Assembly: GCF_018613325.1 (NCBI RefSeq) | Contig: NZ_JAGGQJ010000002.1 | Span: 248,001-312,000, forward strand | Direction of reading: 5' to 3' | Source of the DNA: Bacillus sp. ISL-34 | GTDB lineage: Bacteria > Bacillota > Bacilli > Bacillales > DSM-1321 | DNA: 64,000 nt | Shown: piece by piece, positions 14,070 through 23,130 of the stretch | Layout of the letters: each line of letters begins with the position of its first letter | Position numbering within the stretch: the first letter of the stretch is position 1 | The notes under the pieces: generated by a model | What the model was told of the DNA's origin: nothing | Database searches by the model: none | Seen by the model: only the letters and a program-made list of their open reading frames with translations | Made by a program: the position numbers and the translations under genes

Positions 14070-14099
14070 TTGTTTTTTTAGGATTTCCCATGCTATAAT
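14070..14099 (+). promoter_or_regulatory. Promoter of the cold-shock gene
   Basis: TTGTTT (14070-14075), 18-nt spacer, extended -10 TGCTATAAT (hexamer 14094-14099). The predicted 5' leader is about 120 nt, typical for thermosensing csp mRNAs. Confidence 0.65.
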
Positions 14100-14226
14100 A
14101 TGAGTAATTATTTTTGTTCGGAAAAGTTTGATAGAAGGATTTACTGTAATAGGATTCCTCTTGAAACATTATCCAGAACCAAAAATAGTAATAAAATGGA
14201 TTTTTCCAAACACAGGAGGAACTATC

Positions 14227-14424
14227 ATGGTACAAGGTAAAGTAAAATGGTTTAACGCAGAAAAAGGTTTCGGTTTCATCGAAGTTGAAGGCCAAGACGA
14301 TGTATTCGTACATTTCTCAGCTATCCAAGGCGAAGGCTTCAAAACGCTTGAAGAAGGCCAAGAAGTTTCTTTCGAAATCGAGCAAGGCGCTCGTGGACCA
14401 CAAGCAGCTAACGTTCAAAAATAA
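14227..14424 (+). CDS. Cold-shock protein (CspB/CspD-type)
   Basis: A 65-residue OB-fold nucleic-acid chaperone. RNP1 (KGFGFIEV, residues 14-21) and RNP2 (VFVHFSAI, 27-34) are intact, and the start [14 protein letters not shown] matches the family. It binds single-stranded RNA and DNA and prevents mRNA secondary structure. AGGAGG SD. The long leader and strong promoter suggest cold-inducible, high expression. Confidence 0.95.
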
Positions 14425-14440
14425 TTGAACGCATATAAAA

Positions 14441-14467
14441 AAAAGACTCCGATTTTGGAGTCTTTTT
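14441..14467 (+). terminator. Intrinsic terminator of the csp gene (bidirectional)
   Basis: GACTCC, 6-nt loop, GGAGTC with T5 on the plus side and an A8 tract (T8 on the minus strand) on the other. Confidence 0.88.
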
Positions 14468-14484
14468 CTTTTTCTTTTTCTTTT

Positions 14485-18500: not shown

Positions 18501-18593
18501 ATCAAACGATAGAATAAAAGAGCCATGAAAAAATAGCCGTTATACTATCGTTTCATCATCTCAATCCCCGAAGAATAAGAAACATGAAAAATT

Positions 18594-18748
18594 CAAGGCA
18601 GGTCTCCTGACTCATGATCATCCTACTTTGAGTCCTTCCCGTATAGAGAGCTATACAGTGGGTTTCTCATTTCGTCACATTTACAGTTGCGGGGACAGTT
18701 CCGGGTTTACACCGGATTCCCTTTTCAGCCATCACTGGCACCTTGGAT
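18594..18748 (-). promoter_or_regulatory. Adenosylcobalamin riboswitch (B12 element)
   Basis: On the minus strand the core elements are in order: GGGAATCCGGTGTAAACCCGG, CTGTCCCCGCAACTGT, then the closing B12 box GAGTCAGGAGACCTGCC. This is an almost perfect match to the cobalamin-riboswitch consensus. It precedes a terminator and nrdA, so B12 should switch off the B12-independent reductase. Confidence 0.96.
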
Positions 18749-18908
18749 TATAAAAAATTCTATATATAGTTATTGGTATTGTTTGTATAATCAATATCTA
18801 GTATTTCTGCTTATATTATCGTAAGCCATATACGATGATAATTCAACTAATATATTTGAAAAAAACCAACCCTTATCTATTGACAAAGTGAGGGCAGAGG
18901 GTGAAGCA

Positions 18909-22540: not shown

Positions 22541-22711
22541 ATGGCTATTGTTATCGGAACAATAACTTACATTTTCAACATACATGGAAGTGGTGAGGGT
22601 GAAAAGGCCAGCTCTATCAAAGTTTTTGGAGTAGGAACCCTCCCGGTGTCAAGAGGCTATTCCTTATCAATGATACTGTATTTACATTTAGGACATGTCA
22701 CTTCTTTATAG
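22541..22711 (+). CDS. Weak small ORF, 56 residues
   Basis: ATG 10 nt after GTAAGGAGG. The last 18 codons overlap the oppositely oriented zinc-ribbon gene, and the sequence has no recognised similarity. The SD is the only support. Confidence 0.22.
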   Translation: MAIVIGTITYIFNIHGSGEGEKASSIKVFGVGTLPVSRGYSLSMILYLHLGHVTSL

Positions 22712-22851
22712 TGCTTGAACCTGATCTTTCGAAGGTCGCTTCTGGTCAACATTGCGAATACATTATACCTTGTGCCGCATGCACAAGTATTTTTATCTTT
22801 AACTATGTGTCTCTCATCCGTAGTAGCTGAATAAATGGTTGGAAAAAACAT
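22657..22851 (-). CDS. Small zinc-ribbon-like protein under c-di-GMP riboswitch control
   Basis: 64 residues, ATG after an excellent AGGAGGG SD. Two Cys pairs, CACG (residues 23-26) and CPKC (54-57), are spaced like a zinc ribbon, separated by a basic helix (SDLRKIRFKHYKE). The N-terminus is hydrophobic-aromatic (MFFPTIY). No enzyme motif. It is the only gene directly downstream of a c-di-GMP-I aptamer, so it is presumably part of a motility/biofilm or surface response. Such a fold could bind nucleic acid or a protein partner. I do not recognise a named family. Confidence 0.75.
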   Translation of the reverse strand: MFFPTIYSATTDERHIVKDKNTCACGTRYNVFAMLTRSDLRKIRFKHYKEVTCPKCKYSIIDKE

Positions 22852-22929
22852 ATATAACCCTCCTATTTTTAATTTTAGGCAAATTAAAAAGGGGCAAGAA
22901 ATTGATAATAAAGAGATCCATTCAAGAAA

Positions 22930-23019
22930 AATCTTGGCAGCCCGGCTGCCATGACAACTAAGATGTTGTGTTAGGCCCGTGGCTTTGCGTCTTTTACTTT
23001 CATAAAATTTGCCTAAAAT
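22930..23019 (-). promoter_or_regulatory. c-di-GMP-I (GEMM-I) riboswitch
   Basis: On the minus strand the conserved features occur in order. A GAAA tetraloop closes TTTTAT/GTAAAA, followed by GACGCAAAGCC and GGGCCTAA (tetraloop receptor). A P3 stem ACAAC/GTTGT comes next, then ATGGCAGCCGGGCTGCC. This is a textbook GEMM-I aptamer. The segment ATTTTAGGCAAATT at its 5' edge (minus strand, 23019-23006) is perfectly complementary to a segment at 22872-22885 immediately upstream of the SD of the zinc-ribbon gene. Confidence 0.92.
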
Positions 23020-23130
23020 AATCTTAACATAAAATTTGATGCGTTATGAAGTGTTATGGCTGCAGCCAACCTTCCCCTTTTATTAAGTATCAACAGCAAT
23101 CAGCAGGATTGTCCAAAATATAGAAGGAAA

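Follow-up and report, generated by a model that had tools for sequence, protein, structure and literature searches.

The c-di-GMP-I (GEMM-I) riboswitches act through sequesters and anti-sequesters or through terminators, as set out in excerpts of PMC11218506. Two described members of the class are closest to the locus reported here. Vc2 of Vibrio cholerae, which shares its aptamer class with our riboswitch, is a translational OFF switch whose switching element is P1, and in the class as a whole P2-P3 is described as a stable scaffold, P1 as labile (excerpts of PMC9262584). Since P1 is labile, the 5' strand of the aptamer is a natural place for switching. Bc1 of Bacillus thuringiensis, of the same class and also from Bacillales, precedes an mcp gene; its platform, up to 220 bp in length, includes two terminators, and in the excerpts that deal with it the downstream expression is unchanged with c-di-GMP (PMC11218506).

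We analysed a stretch of 64,000 nucleotides, the window, from a genome that belongs to Peribacillus. In it we found by computation a c-di-GMP-I aptamer, a conserved complement of the aptamer's 5' edge, and a Shine-Dalgarno (SD) hairpin whose arms co-vary. Comparison across leaders lends good support to the predicted platform and target. We think it somewhat likely that the zinc-ribbon gene downstream is controlled at translation, with OFF the slightly favoured, unsettled sign.

The aptamer and its target gene

Rfam gave three matches in the window. One of them is RF01051 at full length (model positions 1-87; 78.0 bits against a gathering score of 35; E 1.3e-13), so that the GEMM-I aptamer of the original prediction stands far above threshold; by its sequence the element is a c-di-GMP-I riboswitch aptamer, a class already known. 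The predicted compact expression platform was also borne out on the minus strand, with 81 nt between the aptamer and the ORF of a 64-aa CxC..CxxC protein (Table 1). Both GG bases of AGGCAAA (23013 and 23012) are G, as looked for at the ligand-selectivity position. G11 of Bc1 and Cd1 has been equated with Vc2 G20 (excerpts of PMC11218506 and PMC9262584), and by analogy the equivalent of G20 would be one of the two G in the 5' GGC.

Table 1. Parts of the riboswitch locus, in window coordinates.
Feature	Position	Strand	Basis
Extended -10 promoter element TGTTAAGAT	23021..23029	-	TGnTAnnAT pattern upstream of aptamer GGC
c-di-GMP-I (GEMM-I) aptamer	22933..23023	-	Rfam RF01051
AGGCAAATT, probable mRNA 5' end and conserved aptamer core, complement of the anti-aptamer	23006..23014	-	Alignment; -10 position
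GGCAGCCGGGCTGCC, stem of the originally predicted terminator, within the aptamer 3' strand	22936..22950	-	Terminator-like site
Small hairpin CAAGATTTTTCTTG after the aptamer, spacer	22923..22936	-	By eye in listed leaders, with changes
Anti-SD arm GCCCCTTTTT	22886..22895	-	Pairs with the SD arm in the isolated-platform fold; arms co-vary
Anti-aptamer AATTTGCC, complementary to GGCAAATT; SD-hairpin loop with upper 5' arm	22878..22885	-	Fold; complement counts
Shine-Dalgarno AGGAGGG	22858..22864	-	Sequence; paired in the isolated-platform fold
64-aa CxC...CxxC zinc-ribbon-like protein gene, ATG start	22657..22851	-	ORF; homologues

The small hairpin after the aptamer is absent, on reading by eye, from leaders L027 and L029. 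The remaining Rfam matches in the window are a cobalamin riboswitch (18580-18760, minus strand, 122.6 bits) and a cspA thermoregulator (14088-14470, plus strand, 84.7 bits against 78); the latter seemingly lies largely over coding sequence, so it may be no thermoregulator but a match to the coding region.

Elsewhere in the window genome, genes for SinI-like anti-repressors (37.9 and 36.0 bits in Pfam SinI, against a cut-off of 31.4) lie behind the two other c-di-GMP-I aptamers (L113, G000:C24:16652-16737; L114, G000:C1:22986-23067). The one relative scanned (L150) has the same arrangement, through which an RNA would connect c-di-GMP with the SinR biofilm switch. In L114, L135 and L141 the GGCAAA block is AGCAAA, and in L180 it is CGCAAA; if its first G occupies the position of Vc2 G20, these aptamers may prefer other cyclic dinucleotides (cGAMP variants). 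Among the matches listed, the number of c-di-GMP-I aptamers per genome is 17 in G027, 11 in both G009 and G011 and 10 in G023, with the others down to 1.

The gene behind the SD had been proposed to encode an uncharacterised small protein, and no family scored above its curated cut-off. The best matches of the 64-aa protein were ZNF512_C2HC (15.4 against 27 bits) and Zn_ribbon_4 (14.7 against 30.3 bits) in Pfam and YnfU (16.4 against 36 bits) in NCBIfam; its PHROGs matches had E values of 0.0025 or worse and were mostly unnamed, and a sequence search of PDB gave nothing below E 0.49. A search with its predicted model found no fold below E 3.7, which says little, since the model is only of medium confidence (pLDDT 78.6). 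Residues P4, H15, V17, D19, C25, G26, F32, I43, F45, C53 and C56 are invariant in 16/16 aligned rows and C23 is nearly so; the cysteine pattern suggests that the protein binds zinc. A second copy of the gene in the window genome (L095, G000:C3:210436-210621) is 71% identical and has lost the first cysteine (CxC to FxC). By eye a decayed aptamer seemed to precede this paralogue; Rfam returned no RF01051 match there at E up to 10, and we dropped it. In G014, G018, G019 and G030 (L104 is one of these loci) the aptamer is flanked by two paralogues, with a diverged zinc-ribbon copy just upstream.

The aptamer was expected to travel with the protein, and to a large extent it does. Among 36 genomes of the genus (the related contigs include Peribacillus simplex, P. 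frigoritolerans, P. butanolivorans, P. asahii and P. loiseleuriae), RF01051 was matched in all 36 and the protein in 34, with no match in the other 2. The aptamer lies directly upstream of the best zinc-ribbon homologue in 26 of the 36, and all 26 leaders were read; in the other eight genomes, the leader of the best homologue had no RF01051 match in the seven read (G010 and second copies set aside). Beyond these genomes, gene and aptamer were also found together in G039 (L089), G357 (L090) and Bacillus sp. S/N-304-OC-R1 (L110), with aptamer scores of 84.6, 73.6 and 76.3 bits. Within 3 kb, none of the loci L106-L110, all of which have the aptamer, has a neighbour cluster in common with the window; shared synteny is thus not enough to account for the association of aptamer and gene. 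At E up to 1e-8, the protein occurs in 15 of 397 sampled genomes of the order.

The 5' edge of the aptamer and the Shine-Dalgarno hairpin

The original prediction drew attention to 14 nt at the 5' edge of the aptamer that are complementary to a strand ending about 6 nt before the SD. The complement is indeed perfect (23019-23006 with 22885-22872), but the gap to AGGAGGG is 7 nt. When the 86 nt downstream were dinucleotide-shuffled, 2 of 20000 shuffles gave the 24-nt 5' edge a match of 14 nt. Complements of at least 7 nt are present in 26/26 Peribacillus zinc-ribbon leaders, and outside Peribacillus 14 of 22 loci have one that covers GGC, against 0.79 expected; leader counts and shuffles together rule out a chance origin.

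What is conserved of the 14-nt pairing is only its core, GGCAAAUU/AAUUUGCC. In the 16 aligned leaders of the 26, GGCAAATT and ATTTGCCT are invariant, and the core pairing of GGCAAATT with AATTTGCC keeps seven pairs unchanged in 16/16 and the eighth in 15/16. Each of the outer six pairs is lost in 2 to 7 leaders, and the linker varies freely, with more than 30 nt lost in some. The 14-nt pairing as a whole was therefore rejected as a conserved element. It shows no double change in the 16-leader alignment, and its paired fraction was reached by 188/500 shuffles; taken literally, this is the lack of covariation between pairing segments that the original prediction had said would speak against it. 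Since the core is invariant, its covariation is impossible. The flanks of the anti-aptamer also lacked covariation in a larger set (p=0.10 for 29 leaders; p=0.034 in the smaller set of 15).

A TGnTAnnAT element ends 6-9 nt before the aptamer GGC in 29/29 zinc-ribbon leaders. Of the 20 leaders of response-regulator genes described in the last section, 14 have it at a distance of 7-10 nt; a generic scan of the region did not have the extended -10 among its listed sites. The usual spacing of a -10 element puts the mRNA start at the A before GGC or close by. The mRNA probably starts, then, at or next to the aptamer GGC, no more than about 3 nt from the complementary block. Of the 14 nt, the outer ATTTT falls between the conserved -10 and this start and is thus probably untranscribed promoter spacer. 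In Bacillus, RppH and RNase J attack mRNAs whose 5' ends are free. A helix so near the first nucleotide in 29/29 leaders might thus mainly shield the mRNA from decay, c-di-GMP altering its half-life and not the access of ribosomes; this would leave the co-varying SD stem unexplained, and we consider the chance of it very slight.

That stem had been only half described. The AT hairpin TTTTTAATTT/AAATTAAAAA of the original prediction is present, but the hairpin is longer than the one given there, because CCCC before it reaches GGAGGG. This pyrimidine (anti-SD) arm, previously missed, stands directly before AATTTGCC and pairs with the SD in the isolated platform. By sequence, for example, the arms pair as CCCC/GGAGGG in the window, CTCCT/AGGAG in L025, CTCTTT/AAAGAG in L089 and CCTTTCT/AGAAAGG in L090, and in the response-regulator leaders as TTACCTTTC/GAAAGGGTAA in L197 and CTCTTTTC/GAAAAGAG in L220. 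Folded alone, the hairpin is stable (mean -10.8 kcal/mol in zinc-ribbon and -10.1 kcal/mol in response-regulator leaders).

Covariation of the arms was assessed by a swap test, in which the fit of each 5' arm to its own 3' arm is compared with its fit to the arms of other leaders. The 29 leaders, chosen for TTTGCC, were 13 zinc-ribbon representatives and 16 response-regulator leaders; L116 and L128 from Peribacillus were added to the latter, and L193, L194, L195, L199, L200 and L203 (six of 20), which have no exact TTTGCC, were left out. Own arms fitted better at p=0.00005 (the floor of 20000 permutations) for all 29, p=0.0021 for 15 leaders, p=0.0002 for the 16 response-regulator leaders and p=0.012 for the 13 zinc-ribbon leaders, in statistics that ignore relatedness. 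With the anti-aptamer nucleotides removed, the values were p=0.00005 for all, p=0.0004 for response-regulator and, weakly, p=0.044 for zinc-ribbon leaders. The upper stem formed from the anti-aptamer AAUUU fitted its own partner in zinc-ribbon leaders (p=0.005) and weakly in all (p=0.040), and was unsupported in response-regulator leaders (p=0.69). In the 16-leader alignment the SD hairpin has 6 double-change cells, a number reached by 19/500 shuffles, while the other four measures were reached by 63 to 492 of 500. The arms thus have the look of the conserved SD-pairing stem of a translational riboswitch, less clearly so on the 16-leader alignment.

The original prediction also held that GGCAGC/GCTGCC followed by AAGATTTTT could act as a terminator. 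Both elements are present, as a terminator-like site of 7 pairs, 5 of them G-C, and the 551-nt region has 3 such sites of any kind against 0.4 in shuffles. Read as a transcriptional ON switch, the site would terminate without ligand, while c-di-GMP would retain the stem bases within the aptamer and so bring read-through. Terminator ON switches are known for this kind of aptamer, pilM, which senses c-GAMP, being the example in excerpts of PMC9262584. The stem, however, follows from the RF01051 consensus itself, whose consensus line is much alike. Furthermore, 7/96 cells are unpaired, with one pair broken in 5/16 leaders and another in 2/16, and a run of at least 5 T follows the stem in only 10/26 leaders. 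We found no conserved intrinsic terminator in the platform across the 26 leaders read for the T-run and the 16 read for the pairs. Termination would also account for neither the conserved AATTTGCC nor the co-varying SD arms. With its broken pairs and scattered T-runs the terminator was rejected as the main mechanism, and an ON switch of this kind appears very unlikely.

Direction of the predicted switch

We propose that the mRNA 5' GGCAAAUU has two exclusive partners, namely the c-di-GMP pocket of the aptamer and AAUUUGCC in the loop and upper arm of the SD hairpin. GGC presumably holds the G20 equivalent, and its pairing with AAUUUGCC should then exclude ligand binding. With c-di-GMP bound, the 5' end would be held, the full SD hairpin would form and translation would be OFF; without it, the 5' end would pair with AAUUUGCC, the upper stem would be lost, the SD hairpin weakened and translation ON. 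We infer the start site, the exclusivity of the partners, the level of control and, above all, the sign. The architecture itself seems to us probable, and given the architecture an OFF sign is only a little better than even; OFF is favoured for the window gene because the supported upper stem competes with pairing of the 5' end. The window genome has 2 GGDEF matches above cut-off.

Folding of the two states gave results that depend on the assumed 5' end, in a program (RNAfold) that excludes pseudoknots. With a 10-nt leader, SD pairing in the window was 0.11 free against 0.77 with the 5' strand held, and of 31 leaders 24 gained more than 0.1 in SD:anti-SD pairing and 1 showed a fall; L026 shows the reverse direction on holding the 5' strand. 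With 9 nt before GGC, holding the 5' strand lifted SD pairing by more than 0.1 in 22/29 zinc-ribbon leaders. When the RNA started 1 nt before GGC, pairing of the 5' end averaged 0.09 in zinc-ribbon leaders, exceeding 0.5 in 3/29 and standing at 0.00 in the window; the average in response-regulator leaders was 0.48, with 8/16 above 0.5. SD pairing rose by more than 0.1 in 14/29 and 7/16, respectively, falling in 1/29. Including 30 coding nt, with a cruder definition of the SD, the two states hardly differed (SD unpaired 0.36 against 0.32, lower in 17/31). A simple thermodynamic flip holds only with about 9-10 nt before GGC; with the probable start or with coding sequence most of it is gone.

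When the anti-aptamer was masked, the SD stayed paired (above 0.5) in 45/45 leaders, with a mean stem of -6.9 kcal/mol in zinc-ribbon and -7.7 kcal/mol in response-regulator leaders. Both helices could therefore be present at once, as a pseudoknot, and the folds do not settle the sign. This opens a serious rival of opposite sign, in which without c-di-GMP the 5' end and the loop of the SD hairpin would form an H-type pseudoknot, its helices stacked, that locks the SD (OFF), and c-di-GMP would draw the 5' end into the aptamer, undo the pseudoknot and raise translation (ON). The helix gap and loop lengths suit such a structure, with 0-1 nt between the helices in 38/45 leaders and a next loop of 8-15 nt in 38/45, although the masking itself favours short second loops. 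The response-regulator leaders also point this way, their lower stem co-varying and their upper stem not, which leaves the anti-aptamer free in the loop. In zinc-ribbon leaders, on the other hand, the supported upper stem is incompatible with full pairing of the 5' end. The hairpin alone being already stable, release of the 5' end may not expose the SD, and, by the limits usual for pseudoknot loops, the 5-6 nt of four of the loops seem rather little to span 8-11 bp. We regard the ON pseudoknot as possible but rather unlikely, and keep OFF as the slightly favoured sign for the zinc-ribbon gene.

Related leaders and comparison with known systems

A search for the 5' half of the aptamer in 397 genomes of the order returned 33 places in 30 genomes, from 17 of 135 genera; the same pattern read backwards returned 0 in genome rows. 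Reading 22 of the 24 places outside Peribacillus, we found that 20 precede a CheY-like receiver and 2 a zinc-ribbon gene. RF01051 scores above cut-off at this place in each of the 20 receiver loci. PF00072 was above cut-off in 11/11 receivers scanned, as truncated peptides, the other nine being judged by eye, and 19 of the 20 have complete ORFs of 117-130 aa. The original prediction, which set the target apart from the usual motility genes, was right about an uncharacterised protein, but the CheY-like receivers behind sister riboswitches bring a motility-type target close. At one receiver locus (L203), a second c-di-GMP-I aptamer lies about 250 nt away on the opposite strand.

Within the genus, other c-di-GMP-I leaders (77 testable of at least 80) carry the complement at 7 nt or more in 11/77 and at 8 nt or more in 9/77. 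Those nine include the leaders of receivers L116, L128, L130 and L177, assigned by eye, and the terminator contexts L143 and L149, in which the complement is the 3' strand of a terminator plus its T-run. In L120 (G003), TTGCCTTTTT is complementary to the 5' edge of the aptamer, and its CCTTTTTT can face the SD AAAAAAGG.

We tentatively suggest, as a possible though not the likelier reading, that leaders of this layout form a distinct Bacillales-wide subtype in which the pocket nucleotides would also be the first nucleotides of the mRNA and the pseudoknot strand on the SD hairpin, so that c-di-GMP and the pseudoknot would compete for the 5' end; its targets would be CheY-like receivers and, for Peribacillus with a few relatives, the orphan zinc-ribbon gene. 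If so, the orphan zinc-ribbon protein would be a new c-di-GMP output. One such platform before single-domain CheY-like regulators of many Bacillales would tie c-di-GMP directly to chemotaxis-type output at the level of translation, and the subtype shared with them gives a hint, no more, that the zinc-ribbon protein takes part in the motile-sessile decision. For Peribacillus, the analysis names a predicted c-di-GMP target together with a falsifiable control circuit.

Among the titles returned by searches of open-access papers, none concerned a c-di-GMP-I riboswitch with a zinc-ribbon gene in Peribacillus, nor a platform with 5' capture before CheY-like genes. The target, the conserved layout of 5'-end capture and its spread to CheY-like genes look new. 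Closest to the window locus are the response-regulator riboswitches (L193-L204, L206, L207 and L217-L222), which have the same aptamer variant, with RF01051 in 20/20, an exact TTTGCC in 14/20 and the extended -10 in 14/20; they differ from it in their CheY-like target and in an upper stem that is not supported. Compared with Bc1, the window platform is short and has no conserved terminator. Compared with Vc2, the target is an uncharacterised zinc-ribbon protein, and, in general layout, the switching strand here would be the 5' GGC of the aptamer, probably the very 5' end of the mRNA, which the SD hairpin would catch with its loop.
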